NCBI RefSeq assembly: GCF_900188275.1
Contig: NZ_FZNY01000011.1
Coordinates: 1-64,000, forward strand
Length of the DNA: 64,000 nt
Source of the DNA: Dokdonia pacifica
GTDB taxonomy: Bacteria > Bacteroidota > Bacteroidia > Flavobacteriales > Flavobacteriaceae
Reading direction: 5' to 3'
Position numbers and translations under genes: made by a program
The notes under the pieces: generated by a model
What the model was told of the DNA's origin: nothing
Databases searched by the model: none
What the model saw: only the letters and a program-made list of their open reading frames with translations
Shown: piece after piece, positions 49,496 through 62,866 of the stretch
Layout of the letters: every line of letters begins with the position of its first letter
How positions within the stretch are numbered: the first letter of the stretch is position 1

Positions 49496-50296
49496 TCACA
49501 ATTTATCAAGAAGTTCTTTTGCTTCGGTATACTTATAATTTGATGGATTCTCTAAAAGAGTTGTTAGTATTTCTTTGGCTCTAGTAGATTCATTAAACTT
49601 TATATAGGTTAATGCTTTATACCATAATGCACGAGAATTATCGAGGCTTTGTGATGTTTCTAAAAGGTCAAACTGTGCGATTGCTTCTTCAAGGTTTCCT
49701 TTTTCAGCATGAATCAATCCTGTATATATATATACTAACGGATCTATTTCTTTACTTACGGATAGGTATTCCTTAAAGTCTGACAAAGATGTATCTAGGT
49801 CATTATTCTTAAAAGCAAGACTTGCTTTTGATAGTAGTGATGTCTCATCTGATCTACTTGTAAATGATGGCAATTCTGAAGACTGGTAATAATCGGTATA
49901 TAAATCGGTGTTAGAATTTCCAGTAAATAAAAGTCCAAATACTAAAATTACTGCAGCTGCTATAGATAAGATATAATAGAGCGGTCGTGTTTTAGATGTA
50001 GGCGCCTCTTCTTGCGAAGTCGCCTTATAGGCTTCCTTTACTTTTAAAAGTTTCTTTTTGAGCGCTTTCCCTTCTTCACTTTCTATATAGGTGTCTATTT
50101 CTTTTTTATAAGCTGTATTATAGTTTGTATCCTCAAATTCGGTTTCTGTGAGATGATGGTTTATAGATGTGTATAAGGCCACTTCTTCTTTTAAGTCTGG
50201 CTGTGTTGCCATTTCCGACTCAAATTGCTGTGCATCTTCCGCAGACATATTGCCGCTTATATATGCTTCTATTCTTTTGTATACGTGTTCTTCCAT
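49496..50296 (-). CDS. Membrane anti-sigma-like protein with periplasmic TPRs (module 1)
   Basis: 266 residues. The N-terminal part (about 1-100) is soluble, and MEEHVYKRIEAYISGNMSAEDAQQFESEM resembles anti-sigma domains (a cytoplasmic helix-rich region opening with a short 'xxYLxGxLsxeE' pattern). A single membrane helix follows (about 107-126), then a periplasmic part with TPR-like repeats (KASLAFKNNDLDTSLSDFKEYL, GLIHAEKGNLEEAIAQFDLL, ALWYKALTYIKFNESTRAKEILTTLL). It overlaps the sigma factor stop by one base (TAATG). A paralogue lies at 57139. An anti-sigma role is inferred from neighbours and topology. Confidence 0.8.
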   Translation of the reverse strand: MEEHVYKRIEAYISGNMSAEDAQQFESEMATQPDLKEEVALYTSINHHLTETEFEDTNYNTAYKKEIDTYIESEEGKALKKKLLKVKEAYKATSQEEAPTSKTRPLYYILSIAAAVILVFGLLFTGNSNTDLYTDYYQSSELPSFTSRSDETSLLSKASLAFKNNDLDTSLSDFKEYLSVSKEIDPLVYIYTGLIHAEKGNLEEAIAQFDLLETSQSLDNSRALWYKALTYIKFNESTRAKEILTTLLENPSNYKYTEAKELLDKL

Positions 50297-50862
50297 TACG
50301 ATTTGAGTTTTGCGTAGTTACCATCTTTCTTAATCAAATCTGCCAAGCGCTTTTTACATTTAAAAATACGCTGAAAGGCTACATTTTCAGAAGCGTATTG
50401 GAACTTCTTTACAATGCGATCATAAGGCACTTTTTTGAAGTAGTCTTTTAATAACTCCTTACAATTAGGAGATAATTGCTGTAGTTTCTCTTCAAAAAGA
50501 TCCCAACGTTCTTGTGCAATAATAGCTTCACTATGATTACTTTCTTCACTCTTAAGTGCAATAACCTCTTCATTTCTTACCCATCTTTTTTTAGAATTTA
50601 ATTCTTTACGCCATATATTTTTACAAACGGTAAATAAATAGGCTTCAAAAGACGACTTAATTTCTATATCACTCACTTTCAAACGAATACTTAATTGATA
50701 GAGTGCATTTTGAAAAACCTCTTCTGCATCTTGTTGCCCTCCTTCATTTTTTAACACAAAATGCCTTACTTTTGGAAACATAGATGTATAGATTGCTTTA
50801 ATGATTTTTTCATCACCAGTTCGCAATCCTTCTAAATAATTTATACCATTTTTTGTGACCAT
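50296..50862 (-). CDS. ECF RNA polymerase sigma factor (module 1)
   Basis: 188 residues with sigma-2 (EEVFQNALYQLSIRLK... SFEAYLFTVCKNIWRKELNSKKRW) and sigma-4 (LQQLSPNCKELLKDYFKKVPYDRIVKKFQYASENVAFQRIFKCKKRL) regions and no long linker, as in ECF group factors. It is divergent from the lipoprotein gene at 50950. The promoter-like motif at 50886-50911 suggests it drives that gene. Paralogous to the factor at 57936. Confidence 0.9.
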   Translation of the reverse strand: MVTKNGINYLEGLRTGDEKIIKAIYTSMFPKVRHFVLKNEGGQQDAEEVFQNALYQLSIRLKVSDIEIKSSFEAYLFTVCKNIWRKELNSKKRWVRNEEVIALKSEESNHSEAIIAQERWDLFEEKLQQLSPNCKELLKDYFKKVPYDRIVKKFQYASENVAFQRIFKCKKRLADLIKKDGNYAKLKS

Positions 50863-50885: not shown

Positions 50886-50911
50886 GGGTAAGATTATAGT
50901 TCTTTTGGAAC
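50886..50911 (+). promoter_or_regulatory. GGGTAA...GGAAC motif, module 1 lipoprotein
   Basis: GGGTAAG and, 15 bases after the GGGTAA, GGAAC. It is 38 bases before the ATG of the lipoprotein. Part of a five-copy set; see also 56331, 58545, 59077 and 62395. Confidence 0.65.
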
Positions 50912-50949
50912 ATAAGGGCAAAATAACATATAAATCTTAAAATTTAATT

Positions 50950-51330
50950 ATGAAAACAACATTTTTAGCTTTACTCACCTTTATTCTCCTTGTAGGATGC
51001 ACTACAGAAGAAACAAATGAAATTGTAGAAACTAGTAATGCTATCATTAAAGAAGATAGTAATACAAGAGAAGAAGGAAACCCATACGCTAATCAATTTG
51101 AATGTTTTGATGTGTTTTTCGACCCTGAAATTCATGACCCATTATCTATTCAGTTAATTCGAGATGGGTATTTTGCCGATGGATATTATTGGTTTGCAGC
51201 ACCTACACAACCTGACGGATATCCTTATCATCAAGTATGGTGTCGTTATTTAGGACATCCTGGAGGTCAAAATGGAGAAGATGATCCACCAACTGGAGTA
51301 ACTATTGTTCCTAAAGGAGGAAGAGGATAA
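50950..51330 (+). CDS. Small lipoprotein of CHAT module 1
   Basis: 126 residues with a lipoprotein signal (LLVGC, Cys17). The rest is short, acidic, with several aromatic residues and cysteines (FECFDVFF, HQVWCRYLG) and a glycine/proline-rich end. I recognise no family. The order of the elements (V-x-F-DPE... IRDGYF ... VWC) faintly recalls the two lipoproteins of module 2. It is followed after 20 bases by the CHAT gene. Confidence 0.7.
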   Translation: MKTTFLALLTFILLVGCTTEETNEIVETSNAIIKEDSNTREEGNPYANQFECFDVFFDPEIHDPLSIQLIRDGYFADGYYWFAAPTQPDGYPYHQVWCRYLGHPGGQNGEDDPPTGVTIVPKGGRG

Positions 51331-51336
51331 TCTTTT

Positions 51337-51354
51337 ATGAAAATCACTATATGA
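51337..51354 (+). other. Mini-frame overlapping the CHAT start
   Basis: ATG-AAA-ATC-ACT-ATA-TGA, a five-codon frame whose stop overlaps the CHAT ATG as ATGA. It could couple translation of the CHAT protein to upstream initiation; it may be chance. Confidence 0.3.
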
Positions 51355-54149
51355 TTTTCCCTATAAACTCACATAAAAAAAACCACCTAGGTTATTTTAA
51401 AATAGTAATCTGGGTGGTTTTTCTTTTTAATATATCAATAACAGCTCAAGAGAGTAATAACATCACTTCAATTCTAAATTCTTCAAGTGATAGTAAACAA
51501 AAAGAGCTACAATTGATATCTCTTTTTAATACTCTCGAAAAAAACAATACTGATTCTCTCTATACCTACTACCAAAAAGCCGCACATTGGTTTTCTATTA
51601 AAAATGATATACAAAATGCTATCATATATGAGCAAAAAGCCTTCAATAATATTAGTTCTTCCAAAGAAACAGATTCTTTAATTGCTCAAAAAAGCGTTTA
51701 TACATTAGGTAATTATTACCGTAGTAACTACCAATTCAAAAAAGCTATTGAAAGCTATCATAAAAGCATTAATTTTCATAAAAGCACTCCACAAGCAGAC
51801 AAAGCATACCTCGGAATAGCATATACATATTATAGAGCTAAAGACTTTTATAAATCTGATCTTTATTATAAAACACTTATAGAAAGATTGGAAAGTAAAT
51901 CTCCATCTCCCTTCTTAGCAGATGTATATTGTAGAGCTGCAATCAATTTAATACAGACAAACACAGATGAAGGTCTAGAAAGAGGGATTACTTATGCAAA
52001 AAAAGCTGATGAGATCTCTAAACTAGTAGAAACACCTAAAACCATACAATATCGCATTAAGTATCGCTTAGGTTATCTCTACAATACGTATAAGACATTA
52101 AATATTAATCTTTCAGAAACGTATTATAAAGAAGCTTTACAAATAGCTATTGATCTTAACGATTCTTCCAAAATTAGGAAGACATATCTTGATCTTGGAA
52201 ATTTACACCAGACAACAAATCTTAATACAGCACTCGCATATGATCAAATAGCATTAAAAATAACTCCTAAAAAAGATTCTTTAACGCGTCATAAAATAAC
52301 TAGTAACATAGGGTTTGCTAACAGTTATTTTGGAAAATATCCCGAAGGTCTCACATATGCATTTGATGCATTACACATACTTACTCTAAAAGATTTTAAA
52401 AATCACACAGATGATTACCAAAAAATATTCCTAGCATCTCCCTACAAACAAAATATCTTAACACAACTTTCCATTCTTGCACAAACCTATTTACGCTATT
52501 ACGAAGAAACAAAAGACCCTGTATTACTAGAAAAATGCATTGCTTATTTTACGATGGGAGATCAACTTATCGACCTTTTAAAAGTAGATAGTAGCGAATT
52601 TACCTCTCGTTTGTTTTGGAGAAATGTAAGTACTAGCATCTATGGAAAAGCCATTAGAGCATGTTATCTACATCAAGATTTAGAAAAAGCACATTACTTC
52701 ATAGAAAAGAATAAAGCATTACTCTTAATGGAAGATCTAGCTAGTCAAGCGTATAAACGGTCTTTGACTATTTCGCCTGAAATTATAGCGCAAGAAGAAG
52801 TTTTACAACGAGAAATTCTAGAACAAGAAAAGCTTCTTAAAACACAAGCACAAACTTCAGGCACAAATCAAGGAAGTAACCTTTATGGAGTATTAGTAGA
52901 GAAGAAAAGAGCCCTAGAACAATTACGAGAAAATATGCTCCCTGAAAAACAACTCTCATTTGAGCCCTCTATTATAGCATTATCTGAGCTTCAAAAATCA
53001 CTTAAGCCTGATGAAGTAATAGTCAATTATCATCTCTCAAATGACGATGGATATGGAATTTATTCCAATAATAACAAAGGCTATATTAGTATCTCTACGA
53101 GCCAAAAAAATAAATTTTTTGAAATAGAAAACACCAATGCATTGCAGACAGATATCCAATTAGCATTAACATTTTTAAAGCGCCCTTTTAAAACACAAGA
53201 AGATATAACCCGCTATACACAACTTTCTAATTCTATTTACAAAAAACTCTTCCCAACAGAAGAAGTAAGAAGTCAAATCAAAAATAAAAAACTAATTATT
53301 TCTCCAGATAGCTATCTCTCATTTTTACCCTTTGAAGCGCTTTCTACATCTGCCGACAAAACCTCATATCTCATTCAGAATACAGAAATACGTTATGTAT
53401 ACTCTAATTCATTTATTAGAAATATTCACAGAGAAGTCACTCCACAAAAACATACGTATTTAGGTATTGCCCCTGTACAATTTCAAGATACACAGCTTAC
53501 CTCATTAGATTATAGTTTACAGGAAATTAATAGTATAGATGCGTATTATCCTGGAGATAAATTATTGCAAGAAAAAGGAACTAAACAAGCTTTTCTGGAT
53601 GCTTTAAACCAACATACCATTATTCATCTAGCCACACATGCTGATATTTCGGATACAACGTCTCCTTGGATTGCTTTTCAAGATGAAAAAATAACTCTTG
53701 AAGAATTATATCTTACAGAAAACAATGCGGCTCTTGTATTTTTAAGTGGTTGTAATACGACATTGGGAGATCACAAAGCGGGGGAAGGTGTGATGAGTCT
53801 TGCCAGAGGTTTCTTTTATTCTGGAGCACAAAGTGTGATTTCTACTTTATGGAGTATTGATGACAAATCTACCGCCTATATTACAGATCAGTTTTATAAG
53901 AATTTAAATAACGGCCTAACAACTTCAGAGGCATTACATCATTCAAAAAAATCATATTTACAACAACACTCAGGGTCTGAGACATCTCCATATTATTGGG
54001 CATCTCCCATACTTTTGGGGAAAGACAATACATTACTTATTGAAAACACTACCCTGGACTACTGGATTCTTATTAGTTGTAGTCTCCTCGTAATGGGGGT
54101 TATTTTCATTTATACGCTTTCGCGAAAGCGTATATCTTCAAAAAAATAG
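51351..54149 (+). CDS. Exported TPR-CHAT caspase-like protein (module 1)
   Basis: 932 residues. A signal segment near residues 14-32 ends SITAQ, then about ten TPR repeats (roughly 70-450), a coiled-coil stretch (EVLQREILEQEKLLKTQ near 490) and a CHAT protease domain (about 620-890). The catalytic pair is His763 in IHLATHAD and Cys801 in VFLSGCNTT, followed by GEGVMSLARGFFYSGAQSVISTLW, the CHAT hallmark. A membrane helix near the end (904-922) with a basic tail would anchor the enzyme from the periplasmic side. CHAT proteins are cysteine proteases used in regulated cleavage and cell-death systems; the target here is unknown. A terminator-like hairpin lies in the signal-peptide codons. The last codons contain a copy of the palindrome. 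Confidence 0.9.
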   Translation: MIFPINSHKKNHLGYFKIVIWVVFLFNISITAQESNNITSILNSSSDSKQKELQLISLFNTLEKNNTDSLYTYYQKAAHWFSIKNDIQNAIIYEQKAFNNISSSKETDSLIAQKSVYTLGNYYRSNYQFKKAIESYHKSINFHKSTPQADKAYLGIAYTYYRAKDFYKSDLYYKTLIERLESKSPSPFLADVYCRAAINLIQTNTDEGLERGITYAKKADEISKLVETPKTIQYRIKYRLGYLYNTYKTLNINLSETYYKEALQIAIDLNDSSKIRKTYLDLGNLHQTTNLNTALAYDQIALKITPKKDSLTRHKITSNIGFANSYFGKYPEGLTYAFDALHILTLKDFKNHTDDYQKIFLASPYKQNILTQLSILAQTYLRYYEETKDPVLLEKCIAYFTMGDQLIDLLKVDSSEFTSRLFWRNVSTSIYGKAIRACYLHQDLEKAHYFIEKNKALLLMEDLASQAYKRSLTISPEIIAQEEVLQREILEQEKLLKTQAQTSGTNQGSNLYGVLVEKKRALEQLRENMLPEKQLSFEPSIIALSELQKSLKPDEVIVNYHLSNDDGYGIYSNNNKGYISISTSQKNKFFEIENTNALQTDIQLALTFLKRPFKTQEDITRYTQLSNSIYKKLFPTEEVRSQIKNKKLIISPDSYLSFLPFEALSTSADKTSYLIQNTEIRYVYSNSFIRNIHREVTPQKHTYLGIAPVQFQDTQLTSLDYSLQEINSIDAYYPGDKLLQEKGTKQAFLDALNQHTIIHLATHADISDTTSPWIAFQDEKITLEELYLTENNAALVFLSGCNTTLGDHKAGEGVMSLARGFFYSGAQSVISTLWSIDDKSTAYITDQFYKNLNNGLTTSEALHHSKKSYLQQHSGSETSPYYWASPILLGKDNTLLIENTTLDYWILISCSLLVMGVIFIYTLSRKRISSKK
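51375..51425 (+). promoter_or_regulatory. Terminator-like hairpin inside the start of the CHAT gene (attenuator candidate)
   Basis: An A-run and AACCACCTAGGTTA (51381-51394) pair with TAATCTGGGTGGTT (51406-51419), followed by a run of T and CTTTTT. It has two or three G-T pairs. It has the form of an intrinsic terminator but lies within coding sequence for the signal peptide, so it could reduce CHAT expression relative to the lipoprotein. Confidence 0.5.
54115..54130. repeat. Iterated palindrome, copy 10
   Basis: A perfect copy in the last codons of the first CHAT gene, read as T-L-S-R-K-R. Confidence 0.95.
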
Positions 54150-54168
54150 CCATTAATTGGCAATCAAT

Positions 54169-54202
54169 CTTCCGAATTAGTAAAACTTCCGAATTAGTAA
54201 AA
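54169..54202 (+). repeat. Two tandem 17-base units
   Basis: CTTCCGAATTAGTAAAA occurs twice in direct succession after the CHAT gene. The remainder of 54150-54340 shows nothing else I can name. Confidence 0.8.
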
Positions 54203-54348
54203 GCGTAAAATTAGGGCCACCCATGAGAAGTAACCCTAAAGTTTACATATAAATCTCATTAATTTATGATGATAATTAACAAGCTCTTTTACTGACTCGG
54301 TATATAAGGCAGTGTTTTATTTATTAGGAAATAGAAAAGAAAGAGAAC

Positions 54349-54376
54349 CTCTATATAGAAGCTCTCTTTTTCTGAA
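54349..54376 (-). terminator. Terminator of the first GG-leader peptide gene
   Basis: An imperfect stem (AGAGAACCTC with GAAGCTCTCT) with runs of T on the minus strand, 10 bases after the stop codon. Confidence 0.6.
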
Positions 54377-54384
54377 GTAATATC

Positions 54385-54600
54385 TTATTTAAAATCGTAG
54401 TTACACTTGAAACAGTTAGGATTATCATAATCCTGAGTACAATATCCTAATGTTCCGCATTCTCCTTCGCACAACACAAGAGATGCGTAATGATTTGGTC
54501 CACAACCACCACCTACAGTGATCATTCCTCCATTAATTTCTTTTTGCTCTTTTTTATTTAATGATTGAGCTCCGTTTAGATTTAAAATGTTTTTTAACAT
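54385..54600 (-). CDS. Double-glycine leader, cysteine-rich peptide A
   Basis: 71 residues. The leader MLKNILNLNGAQSLNKKEQKEINGG ends in a GG cleavage site and is followed by a core rich in Gly and with six cysteines (GGGCGPNHY ... VLCEGECGTLGYCTQ ... NCFKC). It fits bacteriocin- or pheromone-like precursors cut by C39 peptidases. The frame extends upstream to 54636 but the leader homology with peptide B fixes the start at 54600. It lies downstream of the VKOR fusion gene on the same strand. The core is not similar to peptide B except for cysteine content. Confidence 0.85.
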   Translation of the reverse strand: MLKNILNLNGAQSLNKKEQKEINGGMITVGGGCGPNHYASLVLCEGECGTLGYCTQDYDNPNCFKCNYDFK

Positions 54601-54680
54601 AATTGTAAAATTTATAATTAATTTTACTGCGAACATTTTGAGACACTCACAGTTTGTGTCTGTCCTTGCAAGAATGTTTT
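54601..54680 (-). promoter_or_regulatory. Conserved 80-base region upstream of peptide A
   Basis: About 73 of 80 bases match the region before peptide B (56725-56804). It contains an inverted repeat, AGACAC and GTGTCT around a 9-base loop, and its outer end overlaps the stop codon of the VKOR gene. Confidence 0.7.
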
Positions 54681-56301
54681 AGAGCCTGGTAACCACTGGG
54701 CTCTTTTTATTTTTATTAGAATTCATTTGATGTTTTATTTCTATAGGGGCGTTTTCTTTTAACGTCTCAACAAATAGAAACAGATCTTCATATGTATAAT
54801 ATTTATTAGGGAATTTTTGATTCCCTATAAGTGTTTCTGGGGTATATCGAATATCATTTTGATGTGCTACATCACGATGCATTTCAAGTATACGGTCATC
54901 CATTAAAAGCATTGAGTTTGGTATTCCATATTTTTCTATCCAACGATCCACATCTCTGTGCGCAAACCAATCTTTTAAAGCACTAAAAGCATCTGAAACA
55001 CTTTTGTGGTATAGTTCTAAAACTCGTTTTGCAATTTGAGTAGATGGGTTTTCTAAATCTTTTGAAGTATTGAATATGAATTGTATTCCTACGTCTGTTG
55101 GGAATTGCATTAATAATCTATCATACAATTCAAATGCAGCAACACAGTATCCACATAGAGGGTTGGTATATGCAGTTATTTGTATAGGGGCATCTCTGTT
55201 TCCAAAATATACTTGAGCTTCTTGAGGTAAATGCTTTAAATTTTCAATACTATCTTGCTGGAGTGCGTTTAGAAAAAATGCATCGTTCCTTTTAAAAGAA
55301 AGGTATTCTTTCTTTGTTTTAAGTAATTCTTTATTCTTTTGCAATAATGGTTTGCTATAGAACCATAAGAGAGTGAGTGTCATACTTACAACAAGGCCTT
55401 TTATGACATATAGCAAAGAAAAATCCCAATTTGAAAACGCAATGAAAAGCGTCACGAATTGGGATATTAAAACTACAGATATTAACAAACATAAACCGCA
55501 CCATTGCTTAAGTTGTATTCCCTGAAGATATAAAGAGTATGCAACTACAAACAATGACCCTATGGCTATTGTAAATAGCGTACTTGTATGAACCCCAACT
55601 AAGGTTATTACAAAAAATAAACTTGTAAAATAGAGTAATGAAGCATCGCCTAAACCAACGTTTTTACTAATTCTTCCTTCTTTTGAGGTAATTACTGCTG
55701 AACAGCTATCTACTTTTAACGATACTATCGCACATACTTTTGATGTAACAGTATCTTTTACACCAGTACTTTCTTTATATATCAGATAACTTACAACACT
55801 ACCTATTACGGTTAGAAATGTATATACTGCATGCGATATTGATGTTGTAAATAGTAGCGCCATCACTATAATAGATAGCAGTATACTCGTAGTTATAATG
55901 GTTTTAAAACTTGATTGTCTTGTTATAAAAGAACCTTTTTTTTCTTCTTGTTCTATCGCTATGATTGTACCTGTCCATTGAGAAGAGAATTTCTCTATAG
56001 ATCGTATCTTCTTTTTATTTTGTAGTGTCCTGACACGTATTCCTTTTTGAAGTTGTGTTACTAAAACAAGTTCTGTGTTTTTTCCTGTTTCAATAAGTGC
56101 TAAAAACAATTTTGGAAGTTGTTGCAATGCATCTTTAGGGACATTGGCTGCTATATTTTCGATTCCAAAATAATCTAACGTGTCAGTAATCGCATTTATA
56201 CTTGGGTAATCTGCATGAGAAAGCAATTGAAGATGAATATCTTCCTTAGCAAGCGAAGTAATTTTTGATTGTACTAAAAAGCGAAAAACTAACTCGTCCA
56301 T
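54679..56301 (-). CDS. C39-like / VKOR / thioredoxin fusion membrane protein
   Basis: 540 residues. Residues 1-120 look like a C39 peptidase fold without the catalytic Cys (SHADYPSINAITDTLDYFGIE). The middle is a VKOR domain of about five helices with Cys190 and Cys200 and the active WCGLC (267-271). The C-terminal part is a thioredoxin-like domain with CGYC at 383-386 and DVGIQFIFNTSKD/ RYTPETLIGNQKFP around it. VKOR-thioredoxin fusions introduce disulfide bonds in exported proteins; the gene lies between two cysteine-rich GG peptides, the likely substrates (inference). No peptide exporter is in the window. Its promoter region carries the GGGTAA...GAAC motif. Confidence 0.88.
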   Translation of the reverse strand: MDELVFRFLVQSKITSLAKEDIHLQLLSHADYPSINAITDTLDYFGIENIAANVPKDALQQLPKLFLALIETGKNTELVLVTQLQKGIRVRTLQNKKKIRSIEKFSSQWTGTIIAIEQEEKKGSFITRQSSFKTIITTSILLSIIVMALLFTTSISHAVYTFLTVIGSVVSYLIYKESTGVKDTVTSKVCAIVSLKVDSCSAVITSKEGRISKNVGLGDASLLYFTSLFFVITLVGVHTSTLFTIAIGSLFVVAYSLYLQGIQLKQWCGLCLLISVVLISQFVTLFIAFSNWDFSLLYVIKGLVVSMTLTLLWFYSKPLLQKNKELLKTKKEYLSFKRNDAFFLNALQQDSIENLKHLPQEAQVYFGNRDAPIQITAYTNPLCGYCVAAFELYDRLLMQFPTDVGIQFIFNTSKDLENPSTQIAKRVLELYHKSVSDAFSALKDWFAHRDVDRWIEKYGIPNSMLLMDDRILEMHRDVAHQNDIRYTPETLIGNQKFPNKYYTYEDLFLFVETLKENAPIEIKHQMNSNKNKKSPVVTRL

Positions 56302-56330
56302 ACGTTGATGTTTTTGATAAACACCTATAT

Positions 56331-56356
56331 GTTCTGAACAACAAAAAATCTTACCC
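56331..56356 (-). promoter_or_regulatory. GGGTAA...AGAAC motif, VKOR fusion gene
   Basis: On the minus strand GGGTAAG and then, with the same 15-base spacing as in module 1, AGAAC. It is 29 bases before the ATG. Confidence 0.65.
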
Positions 56357-56386
56357 TAAAAATTAAAAAAAATATTTTCCTTCTAA

Positions 56387-56438
56387 AAAAAACAGCAGCT
56401 TAAAGACTATAAAAGTTACTTTTAAGCTGCTGTTTTTT
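56387..56438 (-). terminator. Terminator after peptide B
   Basis: An 18-base stem (56387-56404 with 56421-56438) and T runs on both strands. A second hairpin (56446-56456 with 56480-56490) precedes it right after the stop codon. Confidence 0.85.
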
Positions 56439-56496
56439 TAAGTATAGAAAGTCGTAATTTATATAGTATTTATAAAAACTACGACTTTCTTTTTTA

Positions 56497-56724
56497 TTAT
56501 AGGATAAGATATCCGCCATTACCATTACACATACCATCATTCGTATTTGGACAATCACAGTGTATATCACAACGATGTCCTGATGGAGCAGAACCACATA
56601 CCGTAGGACAATAGTTAGTACTTGCACAACCTCCTATTGTTGGACGCATTCCTCCATTTACAACTTTCTGATCATTTTTGCTCAATTTTTGAGCCCCGTT
56701 TAGATTTAAAATGTTTTTTAACAT
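56497..56724 (-). CDS. Double-glycine leader, cysteine-rich peptide B
   Basis: 75 residues: leader MLKNILNLNGAQKLSKNDQKVVNGG, GG site, then a core with seven cysteines (GGCASTNYCPTVCGSAPS, RCDIHCDCPN, GMCNGNGG). The leader starts the same as peptide A and has the same length; the cores share only the early GGxCG/GGC. The start at 56724 is fixed by this homology; the open frame upstream is the non-coding conserved region. It has its own terminators and the conserved region upstream, so it is an independent transcript. Confidence 0.85.
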   Translation of the reverse strand: MLKNILNLNGAQKLSKNDQKVVNGGMRPTIGGCASTNYCPTVCGSAPSGHRCDIHCDCPNTNDGMCNGNGGYLIL

Positions 56725-56804
56725 AATCGTAAAATTTATAATTAATCTTACTATGAACTTTTTGAGACACTCACAGTTTGTGTCTATCCTTGCAAGAATA
56801 TTTT
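56725..56804 (-). promoter_or_regulatory. Conserved 80-base region upstream of peptide B
   Basis: Homologous to 54601-54680 with the same AGACAC...GTGTCT inverted repeat. Farther upstream (56808-56827) is a hairpin with a T run on the plus strand, of the same layout as one near 54681. From 56830 to 57138 there is a small 7-base hairpin (56936-56955) and nothing else I can name. Confidence 0.7.
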
Positions 56805-57138
56805 GAAAACTCAATCGGCATTGAGTTCTTTTATTTTTAAAAAAGTTTTGGCTTCCTATTAAAATATATACGTATACAAATAGTATTTCGACTTTTGATA
56901 TCACTATCTATTTTTAGAAACAAACAATCTTTATAGGTATTGGGTTTTCAATACCATAAATTTCTATCAAATTATAGTTGCTTATCTCCTGGATTTGATT
57001 CTAAAAAGGGTTAAAATATGATGGTAAAACAGATGCAATATTTTATTAGAAAGGTAAGAAAAAAATACGTAACCAAACACAAACCCCTAAAAATCAATTA
57101 ATTTAATAATTCATAGAGGAAGTTAATTACCAAAAGGA

Positions 57139-57939
57139 TTACAGTTTCTCTAAAAGTTCTTTTGCTTCGGTATACTTATAATTAGAAGAGGATGTGCTAA
57201 TTTCTTGAAGTATTGTTTTTGCTTTTTCAGGATCATCCATTTTCAAGTATAATAAAGCCTTATACCATGCCCCCATAGGCGCATCCATCAGGTCTGTATT
57301 GCTAAGTTGGTCAAAGGTAGTATGTGCTTTTTGGAATTGATTTAATTCCATTTCTGAAATTCCTTTGTATAACAGTATACTCGCTTTGTTTTTTGTAGTA
57401 GTCTCAATTTTAGCATCAAGAATAGTGAGAGCTTCCTGATACTTCCCTTCTTCAAAATAGCGTTCGGCATTTATGAGTAATGTATCTTCTTTTACGCCAC
57501 GAGTGACTAATGATGGAATATCGGAAGTATCATAATAATCTACATATAGTTCTTGAACATTTTGAGGTCCAGACATTAAAACCCCTATCGAAATAATAAT
57601 AGCTATCAAAGCAGCACTTGCATAAAACAACCATACCCTCGTGCTTTTTGAATTCTTCTTTTGATAAGTACGATTTACATTTTTAAGTGTTTCTTTGAGT
57701 TGTAGTGTTTCTTTATCTCTATACAGCGCTTCATATTCTTGAATTCTTTTTTCAGCTACATTTTCTGCAGAACTCCAATTATTTTCTGGTAATGCATCAA
57801 AGAGTTGTTTTTGAATGAGTACGCTTTCGCGAAAGCGTATATCTTCAGACATTCGTTTTTCAAAAGATGCTTCTTCTGTCTTGGATAAATGACCCAATAG
57901 ATAGTCTTCTATGTATGTATTTTCTTCTTCTGGATTCAT
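57139..57939 (-). CDS. Membrane anti-sigma-like protein with periplasmic TPRs (module 2)
   Basis: 266 residues, the same length and plan as the protein at 49496. The cytoplasmic start is MNPEEENTYIEDYLLGHLSKTEEASFEKRM, one membrane helix lies near 105-125 (VWLFYASAALIAIIISIGVLM), and TPR repeats follow, ending with the near-identical TSSSNYKYTEAKELLEKL. It overlaps the sigma factor stop by 4 bases (ATGA). A palindrome copy lies in the cytoplasmic part and is read as R-F-R-E-S. Confidence 0.8.
   Translation of the reverse strand: MNPEEENTYIEDYLLGHLSKTEEASFEKRMSEDIRFRESVLIQKQLFDALPENNWSSAENVAEKRIQEYEALYRDKETLQLKETLKNVNRTYQKKNSKSTRVWLFYASAALIAIIISIGVLMSGPQNVQELYVDYYDTSDIPSLVTRGVKEDTLLINAERYFEEGKYQEALTILDAKIETTTKNKASILLYKGISEMELNQFQKAHTTFDQLSNTDLMDAPMGAWYKALLYLKMDDPEKAKTILQEISTSSSNYKYTEAKELLEKL
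57822..57837. repeat. Iterated palindrome, copy 11
   Basis: A perfect copy inside the module 2 anti-sigma-like gene, read as R-F-R-E-S. Confidence 0.95.
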
Positions 57940-58499
57940 AATTCTTTAAGGGAATTATAACGGTGATCGCTAGTAATGGCTTGTGTTAACTTTGTTTTGC
58001 ATTTAAACACTCGTTGTCTTGCAACAGTTTCTGAGCTATAGCCCATTACCTTAACGATACGTTCATAGGAAACCTTTCCAAAAAACAGTTTGAGTATTTT
58101 TTTACAATTTTCTGATATAGCTTCTAGTTTTTCTGTAAACAATTCCCAGCGTTCTTGCTCAAAAGTAGCTAGTGCCATATCACGTTCTTCATGATGGAGT
58201 TCCAAAATGGCATCATCTGTTACCCTAATTTTATTTTTATTTAATTCTCTACGCCATAAATTTTTACAAGCTGTAAATACATATGCCTCAAAACTACTCT
58301 TAATTTGAAAAGGTTCTCTACGATAACGCACTGCTATTTGAAGCAATGCTTTTTGAAAAATATCTTCTGCATCTACTTGTTGACCTTTATTTTGTATCAC
58401 AAACTTCTGTACTTTAGGTAAGATTTTTGAATACATAACGCTTATTACTTTAGCGTCATTTTCAAGTAAAGCATTGAGGGCCTCTGTATTATCGAGCAT
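57936..58499 (-). CDS. ECF RNA polymerase sigma factor (module 2)
   Basis: 187 residues. Region 2 reads DIFQKALLQIAVRYR ... SFEAYVFTACKNLWRRELNK and region 4 EAISENCKKILKLFFGKVSYERIVKVMGYSSETVARQRVFKCKTKL, both close to the module 1 factor. It is divergent from the lipoprotein at 58613, with a GGGTAA motif between them. Confidence 0.9.
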   Translation of the reverse strand: MLDNTEALNALLENDAKVISVMYSKILPKVQKFVIQNKGQQVDAEDIFQKALLQIAVRYRREPFQIKSSFEAYVFTACKNLWRRELNKNKIRVTDDAILELHHEERDMALATFEQERWELFTEKLEAISENCKKILKLFFGKVSYERIVKVMGYSSETVARQRVFKCKTKLTQAITSDHRYNSLKEL

Positions 58500-58544
58500 T
58501 CGTTAGAAATGATTAGGTAAACAAAAATAAACTTTTATATTTAT

Positions 58545-58571
58545 GGGTAACAAATAATAGAATTATGTAAC
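58545..58571 (+). promoter_or_regulatory. GGGTAA...GTAAC motif, first module 2 lipoprotein
   Basis: GGGTAAC, 16 bases, GTAAC, 41 bases before the ATG. Confidence 0.65.
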
Positions 58572-58612
58572 AAGATGGTACTATTAATTATTAACCCTAA
58601 ACTTTATTTTTT

Positions 58613-59059
58613 ATGAAAAATAGTATTTTAAAATTCGCTTTACTATTATTTGCTTTTATTTTAACAATTGGTTGTAGTTCTGAAAGAGATGACACTTTAG
58701 AACAAGAACTAATCACCGCAAACACATTTGGCATTCAACCCTTACAATGTGCAAACCCTGATTTAGATACAGAAGGATATACTGTGGCTACAGTTTTTGT
58801 AGAATTTGAACCTGGATTATCTAGGGCTGAAAAACAGGCTATACGCGCACCTTATTGTGGGGACATCATTTCTATAGAGCCTTGTACTGGGCGAAATCTA
58901 GGTGAAATCTGGACGATGAGAGGCCCATGTTACACTAGTGGCCCCTTACCTATAAACTGTCAGCCTGGTGTTGTCCCTCCAGTAGATCCAGACTTAAGAC
59001 AAGCTGTAATCGCTAGTGAATGTCAACCTCCAAATGTTGATTTGATTCTACCTGATTAA
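58613..59059 (+). CDS. Small cysteine-containing lipoprotein, module 2, first copy
   Basis: 148 residues with a lipoprotein signal (LTIGC, Cys21). The central stretch VFVEFEPGLSRAEKQAIRAPYCG and EIWTMRG recur in the next gene, so the two are tandem duplicates. The stretch is reminiscent of small inhibitor-like prodomains of subtilisins (beta strand, 'PG', then a helix starting SxAExxAIR), but this is only a resemblance. Four or more cysteines could form disulfides. Confidence 0.75.
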   Translation: MKNSILKFALLLFAFILTIGCSSERDDTLEQELITANTFGIQPLQCANPDLDTEGYTVATVFVEFEPGLSRAEKQAIRAPYCGDIISIEPCTGRNLGEIWTMRGPCYTSGPLPINCQPGVVPPVDPDLRQAVIASECQPPNVDLILPD

Positions 59060-59076
59060 TAAATTTTTCAATTCCT

Positions 59077-59103
59077 GGGTAACAAATAATAGGATTATGG
59101 AAC
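59077..59103 (+). promoter_or_regulatory. GGGTAA...GGAAC motif, second module 2 lipoprotein
   Basis: GGGTAAC, 16 bases, GGAAC, 35 bases before the ATG at 59139. The flanks resemble those at 58545, so the promoter was duplicated with the gene. Confidence 0.65.
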
Positions 59104-59138
59104 TATACCCTATAACAATAATCCTAAACTTTATTTTT

Positions 59139-59567
59139 ATGAAAAAAAGTATTTTAAAACTTACATGTCTACTATCAGCTTTTATTTTAATAATTGGTTG
59201 TAGTACCGATTCTACAGAGAATTCTATAGAACAAGAATTCACTACTGCAAAACAATTTGGTGTTCAACCTAATCATAATACGCCATGTATTGATAACAAT
59301 CTAGATACAGATGGATATTGTGTAGGATATATTTCTGTAGAGTATGAACCTGGATTATCAAAACCAGAAAAACATGCTATACGTGCTCCTTATTGTGGTA
59401 TCATGATTGCTATAGAGACCTGTGAGTCTAATCCAAATATTGAAGTGTGGACAATCAGAGGAAATCCCGGGTGTGCTAAAGAACCTGTTTTATTACCCCC
59501 AACAGATCCTGACTTAAGACAGTCATATACACATTCGGCTTATCATTTTAGAGCTTGTGAATTTTAA
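59139..59567 (+). CDS. Small cysteine-containing lipoprotein, module 2, second copy
   Basis: 142 residues with a lipoprotein signal (LIIGC, Cys21) and the duplicated core YISVEYEPGLSKPEKHAIRAPYCG followed by EVWTIRG. A frame start at 59097 lies inside the promoter motif, so the ATG at 59139 is used. It differs from the first copy mainly in the N-terminal linker and tail. Confidence 0.75.
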   Translation: MKKSILKLTCLLSAFILIIGCSTDSTENSIEQEFTTAKQFGVQPNHNTPCIDNNLDTDGYCVGYISVEYEPGLSKPEKHAIRAPYCGIMIAIETCESNPNIEVWTIRGNPGCAKEPVLLPPTDPDLRQSYTHSAYHFRACEF

Positions 59568-59674
59568 TAAAATCAGTCAAGCTCTTAATTCTAATAATTA
59601 AAAATCCCTACATTTATCTGCAATAGATATTATATAACATTCTTTGAGTAATTCTTAAAATTCAAAAATAAAGA

Positions 59675-62407
59675 TTGAAATTATTACAGATTATATGTGT
59701 TTGGCTTTGTGTATTGTTTTATATAAACAATGCGCAAAGCCAAAATTATTTTGAAAACTACAACAAGCTATATACTGATCAAGGGTATACTTTCAAAACA
59801 AAAGTAGATAGTTTACTGACACTATGTGAGTCTTCAAAAAACTTTGAAGACTATAGTAATATTGCTTCCCACTTTTCTAGTAAAATCTACAAATCCCATC
59901 TCGAAGAAGCTATCAAATATGGAGAACTAGCATTAGAGAAATATCCAGCTTCAAAAGTCAAAGATTCTATCTACGCTACGTTTCGTTTTCGATTAGGTTT
60001 TTTCTATAGTGTAACTAAAGAGTATGAAAAGAGTAATAAACTCTATCTTGATATTATTGAAGCAGGAATTGACCAAGCTAGGATAGCCCAGTCGTATTCT
60101 CGATTAGGTCTTTATTATAATGTGATAGGTGATTATTACAAAGCCGAAGATTATTTTAAAAAGGGTATTTCTATTTTAGAGGAACGACAAGATTATTCAA
60201 AACTAATTAACAATTACAATAATCTTTATTTAGTATATTCCAATCAAGGTTCTAAAGCGAGGCTAAAAAGCAAACAGATATTAGATCGTATGCTTGCACT
60301 TGAATCAGATGGTTTTATCACCATAAAACCATCTAGAAAATCTGATATATACACAAGGTATGCAGATTATTATACTCGAACAGAAACGCTTGATTTTGAA
60401 AAAGCTAGAGACTATCATTTTAAGAACCTAGCACTACTTAAAAGAGCACATATTCTTGATAAAAAATGCACCATATATGCTAACTTATCTGATCTTTATA
60501 ATATCGCAAAAAAAGATAGTGTGTATTACTACATCCAAAAAACACTAAAAAGCTGTCCTGAAAATGCTGCAATATCAAATCATCATCTAAGTCAGTACTA
60601 TAGATATAGAACAGATCTTGACAATGCCCTAACAGCCATACAAGCGTCTCTTACCATAAGTACAGGTATAAAAAATACTAAGACAACGATGCTCTCGGGT
60701 ACTGCATTAGAGCAAACAAAAAACAAAAACTATGTATTTACTGCTTTTGTAGAAAAAGCATATGTACTAGAGCAACTTTATCAAGTACATAAAGACACAG
60801 ACTATCTATCACTCGCGCTAGAAAACATATTAATGGCAGATACCTTAATTGATCATATCCTAGAAGAGAGTAGTGATGAAAGATCTCAATTACATTGGAG
60901 AGACAAAGGTTCTTCCTTATACACACAAGGTGTTGGAATATGTAAACTACTTAATCAACTAGACACTGCTTTTTATTTTATTGAAAAAAACAAAGCCCTT
61001 ATTCTCACTTCTGGAATCACCACAAAAGTCAAAAACAAGCAGCTCCCTGATGCTATCCAAAAACGAGAAAGAGACTTAAAAAAAGAGATCTTACATTTAG
61101 AAACGACCATTACTCAAACAGAAAATATAACACTCCAAAAAGAAAAACAAGAAACCCTCTTTAACCTTAAAATAGCATACCAAGACTTAACCGATTCTAT
61201 TGACACAAACTTTCCTTGGTATTCAAAAAGCACATTAAAAGATCACCTTACAACAATTAATGAAGTAAAGTCAAATCTAAATGATCATAATGCTATTATC
61301 TCATATATATGGGGAATAAATCAAGAAGATCAGAAAGAATCTGTGTATGGAATGTATATAGATGCTACCCTTACGGATATTTTTGAAGTCAAAACTGTAG
61401 ATGCACTTAAAAAACACATATCCCAATACAGAACTTCTATATCAAAACCGTTTCAAACCACCAATGATCAGAAAAATTATCAAGCTTCTGCGCAAGCATT
61501 ATTTAATAATTTAATCCCTTCCAAAACGATAAAAGAAGCTATTCAAAACAAAGAACTACTTATCATTCCTGATGGAGAATTACAATACGTTCCTTTTGAA
61601 TCACTCTTGGTTTCTAATGATCCAACTGACTATTTTATTAAATCAAATCAAATAAACTATTCGTATTCGGTGTCATTTTCAAAAAGCAATGAGGCTATTC
61701 AAAGAACAAATACTAATGAATTTACGGGCTTTGCTCCTATTACTTTTTCTTATGATAATTTACCTGCATTAACAAAGAGTAATATCGAGATAAGTGCTAT
61801 AAAAAGTAGAATAGATGGAATCACATTTATTGAAAAAGATGCGACAAAAGAAAACTTTCTTACGAGATCAAATACAAGCAAAATAATTCATTTAGCCACA
61901 CATGCAGATGCCTCTTCAAATCCTTGGATTGCATTTAGTGATACAAAATTACAAGCCCATGAATTATACTCTTATCAAAATAATGCAGAGTTGGTTGTAC
62001 TTAGCGCCTGTAATACAAGTGTAGGTGATATATTTTCTGGAGAGGGTGTCATGAGTTTAGCAAGAGGTTTTTTCTATGCTGGCGCAAATACTGTAGTATC
62101 TAGTTTATGGGAAACTAATGATAAGATGACTGCAGAAATTATGGATTCATTTTATTCATATATAAAAGAAGGAGCTTCTAAATCTGATGCATTACATCTA
62201 GCAAAGCTTGATTATATAAATACAAGTGATCTTTCAAAACAATCACCCTATTATTGGGCTCCATGTATTCTTATAGGTGAGGCAGATGCTACACTTTATT
62301 CTTCAAGCCCCATAAGCAATTACATACTTATTTTAATAGGTATCATGCTCATCATCTTTATTTTATACATAAAAAGAAAAAAAATATTTTTCTTGGGTAA
62401 CAAATAA
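59675..62407 (+). CDS. Exported TPR-CHAT caspase-like protein (module 2)
   Basis: 910 residues from a TTG start (MKLLQIICVWLCVLFYINNAQSQ is a proper signal peptide and no ATG is in frame near it). TPR repeats fill roughly 60-440, a coiled coil follows near 470-510, and the CHAT domain ends the protein. The catalytic residues are His743 (IHLATHAD) and Cys779 (LSACNTS), with GEGVMSLARGFFYAG after it. A membrane helix lies at about 881-899 with a lysine-rich tail. The distance from Cys to the end is the same as in module 1. The gene carries the fourth GGGTAA motif at its 3' end. Confidence 0.9.
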   Translation: MKLLQIICVWLCVLFYINNAQSQNYFENYNKLYTDQGYTFKTKVDSLLTLCESSKNFEDYSNIASHFSSKIYKSHLEEAIKYGELALEKYPASKVKDSIYATFRFRLGFFYSVTKEYEKSNKLYLDIIEAGIDQARIAQSYSRLGLYYNVIGDYYKAEDYFKKGISILEERQDYSKLINNYNNLYLVYSNQGSKARLKSKQILDRMLALESDGFITIKPSRKSDIYTRYADYYTRTETLDFEKARDYHFKNLALLKRAHILDKKCTIYANLSDLYNIAKKDSVYYYIQKTLKSCPENAAISNHHLSQYYRYRTDLDNALTAIQASLTISTGIKNTKTTMLSGTALEQTKNKNYVFTAFVEKAYVLEQLYQVHKDTDYLSLALENILMADTLIDHILEESSDERSQLHWRDKGSSLYTQGVGICKLLNQLDTAFYFIEKNKALILTSGITTKVKNKQLPDAIQKRERDLKKEILHLETTITQTENITLQKEKQETLFNLKIAYQDLTDSIDTNFPWYSKSTLKDHLTTINEVKSNLNDHNAIISYIWGINQEDQKESVYGMYIDATLTDIFEVKTVDALKKHISQYRTSISKPFQTTNDQKNYQASAQALFNNLIPSKTIKEAIQNKELLIIPDGELQYVPFESLLVSNDPTDYFIKSNQINYSYSVSFSKSNEAIQRTNTNEFTGFAPITFSYDNLPALTKSNIEISAIKSRIDGITFIEKDATKENFLTRSNTSKIIHLATHADASSNPWIAFSDTKLQAHELYSYQNNAELVVLSACNTSVGDIFSGEGVMSLARGFFYAGANTVVSSLWETNDKMTAEIMDSFYSYIKEGASKSDALHLAKLDYINTSDLSKQSPYYWAPCILIGEADATLYSSSPISNYILILIGIMLIIFILYIKRKKIFFLGNK

Positions 62408-62421
62408 CAAACTTCAGGAAC
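62395..62421 (+). promoter_or_regulatory. GGGTAA...GGAAC motif at the end of the second CHAT gene
   Basis: GGGTAAC, 16 bases, GGAAC, spanning the stop codon. The nearest downstream frame begins at 62450; AAGGAG at 62426-62431 would be a ribosome site. Confidence 0.55.
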
Positions 62422-62449: not shown

Positions 62450-62866
62450 TTGTACTACCCTATTACATATCGATTACAATCAATATCTAACATCAATGAG
62501 TTTGCCATTGACAAGGATATTCTTGTGTTTCAAAAAAAACAATATCCATTGTATTTAGACATCCTTCCTATTGTAAATATTCTTGTTTACAAATTAAATA
62601 AAAGTGGGTCTAATTTGAGAGCAGGTCTATTTGCAAGTTTAGGGTTTACGCTTATAGGCCTGATCTACAAGATATCATTAATACAATGTATCGTATGGCA
62701 TAATACCAAAGTAATTATCAATACTTCAATTGCATGTATTTCACGTAATGCTTTGCTTTCTGAGTACGCTTTCGCGAAAGCGTACCAAGCCACCAATTCT
62801 TCTTATAAAAAGAACAGATTCATTCATACATCAATAAACAAACAATCAAAAATTTCAATACTATGA
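62450..62866 (+). CDS. Uncertain frame, possible membrane protein, downstream of the motif
   Basis: An open frame of 138 residues with a TTG start. It has one strong hydrophobic stretch (LRAGLFASLGFTLIGLIYKISLIQCIVW) and its stop overlaps the next ATG by 4 bases (CTATGA). The frame contains a copy of the palindrome in the reading E-Y-A-F-A-K-A-Y. The sequence matches no family I know, the start is unusual and codon use is poor, so it may be non-coding or a remnant. If it is not a gene, 62408-62862 is a gene-free stretch. Confidence 0.35.
   Translation: MYYPITYRLQSISNINEFAIDKDILVFQKKQYPLYLDILPIVNILVYKLNKSGSNLRAGLFASLGFTLIGLIYKISLIQCIVWHNTKVIINTSIACISRNALLSEYAFAKAYQATNSSYKKNRFIHTSINKQSKISIL
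62767..62782. repeat. Iterated palindrome, copy 12
   Basis: A perfect copy extended to TACGCTTTCGCGAAAGCGTA, just before the last gene of the window. Confidence 0.95.

Follow-up and report, generated by a model that had tools for sequence, protein, structure and literature searches.

In the Craspase system (Cas7-11/Csx29-Csx30-CASP-sigma), the tetratricopeptide repeat (TPR)-CHAT protein Csx29 cuts Csx30, an inhibitor of an extracytoplasmic function (ECF) sigma factor, as outlined in the relevant passages of PMC10028731. The same passages summarize the RseA/DegS/sigma-E system of E. coli, in which an ECF sigma factor is held by a transmembrane (TM) antisigma factor. Here, we analyzed a 64,000-nucleotide stretch of Dokdonia pacifica DNA (hereafter the window; positions 1 to 64,000 of contig NZ_FZNY01000011.1, assembly GCF_900188275.1), where copies of a two-box motif, GGGTAA-N15/16-GNAAC, are found in and around two adjacent paralogous modules. 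Each module carries an antisigma-like TM-TPR protein and an ECF sigma factor (sigma-1 or sigma-2) on the minus strand, and lipoprotein and TPR-CHAT genes (CHAT1 or CHAT2) on the plus strand. The genes of a VKOR-thioredoxin fusion and two GG-leader Cys-rich peptides are located between the modules.

As in Craspase, a TPR-CHAT protease is tied to an ECF sigma factor and its putative inhibitor, and the motif of the sigma factor recurs in its own locus. However, Csx29 is described in these passages as RNA-guided within a CRISPR effector complex, whereas the present CHAT proteins carry a hydrophobic signal at the N-terminus and a TM helix at the C-terminus, the putative antisigma factor is a TM-TPR protein, and cleavage is only proposed here. 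The likeness to RseA/DegS/sigma-E lies in the TM antisigma factor, from which a periplasmic protease could release the sigma factor. In contrast to that system, the protease is a caspase-like CHAT protein, a predicted promoter lies inside the sigma gene, and sigma-2 is seemingly driven by a housekeeping promoter. The SM6 promoters of Flavobacterium psychrophilum, mapped by 5'-end sequencing (PMC9723704, in part), are also of ECF type and from the same family, but they have a CGT box in the -10 region and their genes include type IX secretion components; the main text of that paper contains no word beginning with CHAT or GTAAC. In Caulobacter, the sigV promoter inside cabp is likewise embedded in coding sequence beside an ECF sigma gene (excerpts of PMC13171946). 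There, the promoter within the preceding, neighboring gene drives the sigma gene, whereas here the sigma gene seems to carry its own target promoter, directed toward the antisigma gene. We found no description of the present CHAT-protease ECF family in open PubMed Central text. The motif would represent a predicted promoter code, with three forms at the base following GGGTAA (base 7), for CHAT-protease ECF systems across marine Flavobacteriaceae and Roseivirga.

Predicted promoters of two paralogous sigma factors

The motif copies are very probably promoters of the two paralogous ECF sigma factors, which would control a CHAT-protease envelope regulon including disulfide formation; a further predicted promoter inside each sigma gene faces the antisigma gene and would provide negative feedback. 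In the window, which lies on contig C9 of the 5.5 Mb genome (G000), GGGTAA-N15/16-GNAAC has five exact matches (50886+, 58199-, 58545+, 59077+, and 62395+), compared with 0.11 expected and a maximum of three in 100 shuffles. The copy at 56331 reads GGGTAA-N16-GAAC and belongs to the form in which the N is optional. All five copies reported in the initial annotation (50886, 56331, 58545, 59077, and 62395) are present, and their division into 26-base copies sharing GGGTAAGATT and 27-base copies sharing GGGTAACAAATAA is correct. So are the gaps of 29-41 bases between the motif end and the ATG (38, 29, 41, and 35 bases for 50886, 56331, 58545, and 59077). A sixth copy at 58199-58225 on the minus strand, within the sigma-2 gene, had been overlooked. 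The boxes of ECF promoters are ~15-17 bases apart, and the copies upstream of the module genes have this two-box spacing. The motif copies and predicted promoters are located as follows; G, C, and L numbers denote genomes, contigs, and loci.

50886..50911, plus strand: predicted promoter of sigma-1 type, GGGTAAGATT-N12-GAAC, before lipoprotein 1 and CHAT1; counterparts GGTAAGATT in G010, G015, G117, and G316
56331..56356, minus strand: predicted promoter of sigma-1 type, GGGTAAGATT-N12-GAAC, before the VKOR gene
58545..58571, plus strand: predicted promoter of sigma-2 type, before lipoprotein 2a
59077..59103, plus strand: predicted promoter of sigma-2 type, before lipoprotein 2b and CHAT2
62395..62421, plus strand: predicted promoter of sigma-2 type, overlapping the CHAT2 stop codon
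58199..58225, minus strand: copy inside the sigma-2 coding sequence (GGGTAACAGATGATGCCATTTTGGAAC), on the same strand as the gene; proposed internal promoter toward the antisigma gene
50556..50582, minus strand: copy inside sigma-1 (GGGTAAGAAA...GCAC, second half weak), at the codon position seen in other sigma genes
58522..58553, minus strand: predicted housekeeping-type promoter of sigma-2 (TTG-N21-TATTTTTG), whose TTG box overlaps the CAA of the divergent GGGTAACAAA

The spacing of the two boxes is also marked on the genome scale. Among the 62 distinct GGGTAA(C/G)A(A/T)(A/T) boxes listed for G000, excluding those with C at both end positions, nine are followed by AAC at +13/+14, against 1.5 expected (P 3e-5), and five of these nine are in the window.

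Conservation across related loci

A scan of 84,980 genomes for sigma-2 relatives yielded 117, and the best 80 loci were kept. The layout, in which antisigma and sigma genes diverge from lipoprotein and CHAT genes, recurs across these 80 related loci, two of which lie outside Flavobacteriaceae, in Roseivirga (L064 and L087). A protein like the antisigma proteins of the two modules (AS1 and AS2) is found in all 80 loci, CHAT in 79, and the lipoprotein family (80 members) in 73, as judged by a family profile, which replaced a lipobox pattern that was too strict (29/80 loci). GGTAACA lies at most 170 bp upstream of sigma and points away from it in 70/80 loci, compared with 0.5 in base shuffles, and the pattern of the initial annotation, with the N optional, occurs within 900 bp in 42/80. 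Where a second lipoprotein copy exists (seven loci), a GGTAAC box precedes it in five, L044 and L075 being the exceptions.

Near the CHAT stop codon (-60 to +250), a further motif copy is found in 30 of the 75 loci with a CHAT stop and flanking sequence, 23 of them at -5 to +12, and shuffles gave 0.0. A VKOR fusion directly follows CHAT in 13 of these loci, 11 of which carry the motif; elsewhere, GG peptides, lipoproteins, or secreted proteins follow. The 70 divergent boxes, the 30 post-CHAT copies, and the 11 VKOR genes back the earlier proposal that ECF promoters link the CHAT modules with the VKOR gene. That the tandem copies 2a and 2b arose by local duplication and the other motif copies by coincidence has next to no probability. 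Lipoproteins 2a and 2b do have alike leaders and are 51% identical, and loose patterns are unenriched, but dozens of other species have the motif at these positions as well, and the divergent boxes contradict coincidence.

The orientation of the motif bears on whether it could be an operator for a DNA-binding regulator instead of a sigma promoter. Stricter two-box matches in the 80 loci number 122 on the output strand outside recognized genes and eight on the opposite strand; within genes, they fall in sigma (61 sense, four antisense), CHAT (three), and VKOR (one). Two half sites with near-fixed spacing would also suit a dimeric regulator. However, the motif has no evident symmetry, lies mostly in one orientation, out of the module, and, where an ATG follows, is about as far from it as a promoter would be. 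Moreover, one of its bases tracks the clade and recognition helix of the adjacent sigma factor, as described below, and no other regulator was found among the ten module proteins scanned. We consider an operator very unlikely and retain the promoter interpretation.

Two promoter types follow two sigma clades

Base 7 divides the window copies into a sigma-1 type, GGGTAAGA(A/T)(A/T), at 50886 and 56331, and a sigma-2 type, GGGTAACAAA, at 58545, 59077, and 62395. The single regulon of disulfide formation and CHAT proteases proposed in the initial annotation needs to be split, since the two base-7 types track two sigma clades, although VKOR and CHAT1 do share the sigma-1 type. On this basis, VKOR (56331) and the module-1 lipoprotein and CHAT genes would go with sigma-1 and the module-2 copies with sigma-2.

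The divergent promoter of the sigma-1 relatives is GGTAAGA(T/A)T in G000, G010, G015, G117, G316 (twice), and G327. G117, from another genus, contains a complete sigma-1 module in which the G form precedes the lipoprotein gene and recurs between CHAT and the adjacent VKOR gene. Two G316 contigs match G117 from sigma to VKOR and end inside sigma, with the antisigma gene beyond view; in one of them, the VKOR frame is broken. The G form thus also precedes VKOR in G117 and G316, and G327 has a second G-form site ~340 bases past CHAT, with no VKOR there. In these four sigma-1 loci, all from other genera, base 7 is G in both promoters, compared with C in the 30 post-CHAT copies of sigma-2 loci. The 56331 copy itself has counterparts before the inter-module VKOR gene of G014 (L028) and, in G015, before a broken VKOR start with only a 38-residue frame left.

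The strict sigma-1 form, GGGTAAGA(A/T)(A/T)-N12-GAAC, has 16 sites in 5/59 genomes, and the reversed control has none in those five. Four of the five carry a close sigma-1 (62-100% identity), and the sigma factor of the fifth, G007, is placed in the sigma-1 clade by a tree with long branches and midpoint rooting, of which we relied solely on the starred clade of seven and on the T clade. Across 18 genomes of the same genus, the strict form occurs in 5/5 with a clade-1 sigma and 0/13 without (1 in 8,568 by counting, relatedness ignored), or in 4/4 and 1/14 without the G007 assignment. Similarly, of the GGGTAACAAA-N13/14-AAC sites, 17 fall in the five genomes that carry a module-2-like sigma factor and eight in the remaining 54. 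Before the QR of the recognition helix, Phe is found in 5/5 readable G-type sigma factors (three unreadable) and Arg in 70/70 readable C-type ones (five unreadable).

These data also bear on whether either sigma factor reads both base-7 forms, making a single regulon after all. In favor of such cross-recognition, the boxes differ at few positions and the two sigma factors are ~50% identical. However, G010, whose only match is sigma-1-like, has three strict sigma-1 sites and no GGGTAACAAA-N13/14-AAC, whereas G013, with only a module-2-like sigma, has two GGGTAACAAA-N13/14-AAC sites and no strict sigma-1 site. The four sigma-1 loci of other genera, G-type in both promoters, point the same way. 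A shared regulon is therefore unlikely, and the two modules seem well suited to showing how sigma circuits that arose as paralogues come to be insulated from each other.

Other paralogues and a decayed copy were seen along the way. In module 1 of G014, the frame behind a decayed divergent promoter is short and the sigma-1 gene is kept. Further sigma paralogues, at G000:C12:44100-44725 and in G007, G014, G015, and G316 (L119-L121 and L271), include one that has GGGTAACAAA and an apparently different second box, GCTCTT, and a clade with GGGTAAT, in which base 7 is T.

A predicted promoter inside the sigma genes

The copy inside sigma-2 has counterparts in other sigma genes: GGTAAC-N17-21-AAC lies inside 70 of 111, at about codon 92. 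Codon choice was compared with background in 99 of the 111, 12 being dropped as short, distant, or unmatched. The four most synonymously constrained of 187 columns are 92 (xGG), 101 (CTN), 93 (GTA), and 94 (ACA), which spell both boxes, with G/n of 2.19, 1.70, 1.60, and 1.43 against a mean of 0.35 (sd 0.30). In 500 runs of synonymous resampling, the box appeared in 12.6 genes (maximum 22), compared with 86/99 observed, and the box with GAAC in 3.7 (maximum 11), compared with 71/99. Given this constraint, chance was dropped as an explanation of the 58199 copy. These genes share no conserved internal start codon from which a shorter sigma factor could be made; column 108 is Met in 31/99.

Protein sequence alone could in principle preserve the embedded copy, since its Val-Thr and Glu-Leu residues are conserved. 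However, the first codon encodes different residues (Arg, Lys, Trp, Glu, Met, and others) and yet ends in G in 92%, and GTA and ACA are used in 93/99 and 84/99 genes. Furthermore, the four columns and the resampled 3.7 genes against 71 speak for selection on the bases, and residue 94 follows the promoter base, being Thr, Arg, or Met for C, G, or T. Conservation through the protein alone is extremely unlikely. Base 7 is identical between the divergent and embedded copies in 82/82 genes in which both were read (73 C, five G, and four T), and among the 17 genes that lack a divergent box, the embedded copy has C in 14, G in two (both clade-1), and another base in one.

The next gene on the strand after the embedded copy is the antisigma gene, ~260 bases on (in module 2, starting at 57939). 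Since the copy lies on the coding strand within the sigma gene, active sigma would transcribe the antisigma gene and not more sigma. Alternatively, the copy may be a stop or pause site at which the bound sigma-holoenzyme blocks RNA polymerase in its own gene, which would also be negative feedback. The sequence evidence for such a site is identical to that for a promoter, and PMC10771440 mentions, in the passage concerned, sigma-dependent pausing at promoter-like intragenic sequences. However, the coding strand preserves both halves at a constant distance from each other, the antisigma gene comes immediately after, and a full promoter is not clearly needed for pausing. Pausing is thus rather unlikely. 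We favor, with some reservation, a sigma gene that carries its own target promoter, in which residue 94 is set by the base that the sigma factor recognizes and from which sigma drives the antisigma gene; specificity, recognition helix, and outgoing and embedded promoters would then switch together in a new paralogous circuit.

Observations against the promoter interpretation

Several observations weigh against this interpretation. Genome-wide, the pattern of the initial annotation has 16 matches against 27 with the reversed pattern, GGTAACAWW-N13/14-AAC has 14 against 11 in the control, with no genome-wide enrichment, and GGGTAABAWW-N13/14-AAC has 75 against 85 over nine genomes. In the 80 loci, ten lack GGTAACA within 170 bp, 45/75 lack a post-CHAT copy, and the loci are related, so the counts are non-independent. 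Among 30 VKOR loci taken from 56 matches, 27 have no motif within 160 bp upstream; VKOR is therefore not generally under this promoter, and with only 3/30 positive it was dropped as a general target. The internal copy of sigma-1 has GCAC, not GAAC. In G014 (L111, on G014:C10), the module-1 divergent promoter is decayed (GGGATACGATT...GAAA), and five other sigma-1-type sites are retained. One of the 16 strict sigma-1 sites is within a reading frame (G010:C59:4346). The clade-1 sigma of G007 is on a long branch (0.92), lacks the Phe, and has GGGTGAGATT instead of GGGTAAGATT before it. The Phe/Arg difference in the helix rests on one clade for the G type, and base 7 has switched few times, perhaps twice (the G clade and the T clade).

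Loose patterns were dropped as a genome-wide matrix, being unenriched against controls, and refined boxes were used instead; GGGTAAGATT with GNAAC has a single match, the 50886 copy, and one in the control. The initial annotation had asked whether hits in the genome cluster before small lipoprotein, CHAT, or GG peptide genes. The outcome is mixed: the loose patterns are unenriched, but some extra intergenic sites do precede genes of these or similar kinds. Ten of the 11 exact matches outside the window are within called reading frames, and the intergenic one (C17:58782) has a GG-leader peptide gene 74 bases downstream. Among 66 broader-pattern sites in fetched stretches (forward pattern only, simple greedy gene call, two more sites unfetched), 40 are intergenic and 26 coding. 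Five extra intergenic sites in G000 include one before a GG peptide gene, one before a lipoprotein gene, and one before an apparent signal-sequence gene; the remaining two have no such gene downstream.

Proposed circuit

In the circuit that these sequences suggest, sigma-1 would read GGGTAAG-A(A/T)(A/T)-N12-GAAC and thereby start transcription of lipoprotein 1 and CHAT1 and of VKOR. Sigma-2 would read GGGTAACAAA-N13/14-AAC before lipoproteins 2a and 2b with CHAT2, before a decayed post-CHAT2 VKOR gene, and probably before a GG-peptide gene elsewhere. From the embedded promoter, active sigma would transcribe the downstream antisigma gene without making more sigma, which would close a shut-off loop. 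Expression of sigma-2 itself seems to depend on the housekeeping promoter. A housekeeping-type promoter is found at the sigma gene in 26/80 loci, 21 with the TTG/CAA overlap (1.3 in base shuffles), and the same pattern gave none for sigma-1. The housekeeping promoter at 58522-58553 shares bases with the divergent sigma-2 promoter, so that basal production of sigma may compete with the output promoter.

The physiology is the least certain step of this explanation. CHAT proteins have a C-terminal TM helix in 75/78 and a hydrophobic N-terminus in 62/78 cases, which suggests a periplasmic, membrane-anchored protease. His and Cys motifs of the CHAT protease family were found by pattern in 76/78 and 70/78, respectively. 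The CHAT protein either frees sigma by cutting the TM antisigma factor or is an output of the circuit. Release by cleavage is a guess, and one we hold more doubtful than probable, made because Csx29 cuts Csx30, the inhibitor of an ECF sigma factor, in the analogous system. The regulon may supply lipoproteins to the envelope, along with a VKOR-thioredoxin enzyme that would form disulfides in Cys-rich proteins destined for export and in GG peptides. Judging from its domains and cysteines, VKOR would oxidize the Cys-rich GG peptides and lipoproteins, which would tie disulfide formation and GG-leader peptides to a CHAT-protease ECF system.

Genes of the two modules

The genes in this part of the window are as follows.

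49496..50296, minus strand: module-1 antisigma-like protein (AS1), with an N-terminal domain, one strong hydrophobic stretch from residue 106 (hydropathy 2.53), and a TPR region (weak matches)
50296..50862, minus strand: sigma-1, ECF sigma factor; Pfam PF04542, and TIGR02937 above cut-off over residues 22-174
50950..51330, plus strand: lipoprotein 1, of the family of 2a and 2b (profile match E 2.8e-8 in a 3-sequence search)
51351..54149, plus strand: CHAT1, with an N-terminal hydrophobic signal, TPRs, CHAT (PF12770, E 5e-51), and a C-terminal TM helix with a basic tail
54385..54600, minus strand: GG-leader Cys-rich peptide 1 (GG1), 71 residues, 6 Cys
54679..56301, minus strand: VKOR-thioredoxin fusion (PF07884, PF13462) with CGLC and CGYC motifs
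56497..56724, minus strand: GG-leader Cys-rich peptide 2 (GG2), 75 residues, 7 Cys
57139..57939, minus strand: module-2 antisigma-like protein (AS2), with one hydrophobic stretch and a TPR region
57936..58499, minus strand: sigma-2, ECF sigma factor by Pfam and NCBIfam scans
58613..59059, plus strand: lipoprotein 2a; predicted model with mean pLDDT 83.9 and no significant PDB match
59139..59567, plus strand: lipoprotein 2b, 51% identical to 2a
59675..62407, plus strand: CHAT2, TPR-CHAT with a C-terminal TM helix (PF12770, E 2e-51)
62450..62866, plus strand: VKOR fusion gene remnant, from tblastn against that stretch alone

ECF (group IV) sigma factors consist of the sigma2 and sigma4 regions, without region 3 or region 1. 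Both sigma factors here have 187-188 residues, PF04542, and TIGR02937 above cut-off over residues 22-174, which fits this group; Pfam region 4 itself was not reported. AS1, the antisigma-like protein included in the NCBIfam scan, matches the antisigma model NF052375 at 27 bits, under the cut-off of 100. CHAT1 has HLATHA from residue 757 and LSGC from residue 798, and its only match in a search of solved structures is a designed TPR protein. PADLOC on four proteins gave no CRISPR-related match for CHAT1 or CHAT2, and its sole hit to a defence system was a weak one to the TPRs of CHAT1. A Pfam scan of the ten module proteins gave no CRISPR-related match either, arrays and Cas genes elsewhere in the genome not being searched. 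An inhibitor-like fold for the lipoprotein was unsupported (best Foldseek E 0.038, none < 0.001).

The VKOR fusion has C190 and C200 as loop cysteines, CGLC at 268 as the VKOR CXXC, and CGYC at 383 as the thioredoxin CXXC. The remnant behind CHAT2 matches the second VKOR of L028 (64% over 25 residues, E 1.6e-6) and, on its 5' side, the N-terminal part of the L046 VKOR (29% over 41 residues, E 0.003), on the same strand and in the same order. At this position, G014 (L028) keeps a long VKOR frame and G015 a shortened one. The 62395 copy thus precedes what appears from these matches to be a decayed second VKOR gene.

GG-leader peptide genes and neighboring elements

Leaders of GG-leader peptide genes contain a predicted H-type pseudoknot, AGACAY-AAA-CUGUGA-RUGUCU-n8-UCACAG, before GG1 at 54627-54661 and before GG2 at 56751-56785, both on the minus strand, and also in L036, L077, L091, L106, L182, and others. 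Of 78 distinct non-overlapping matches in the fetched sequence, 61 are followed by a GG-leader peptide gene. The second stem has at least 5/6 pairs in 57/61 of these, compared with a mean of 33.6 and a maximum of 41 in 200 runs with swapped 3' tails. Rfam gave no fitting match on window positions 54000-57000 at E up to 1. Two strong hairpins at 56371-56490, between the VKOR promoter and GG2, are probably terminators and gave only weak, implausible matches to miRNA models. Downstream of module 2 and past the window, L108 (G000:C9:70095-75900) contains a further lipoprotein gene together with at least five additional genes for GG-leader peptides.

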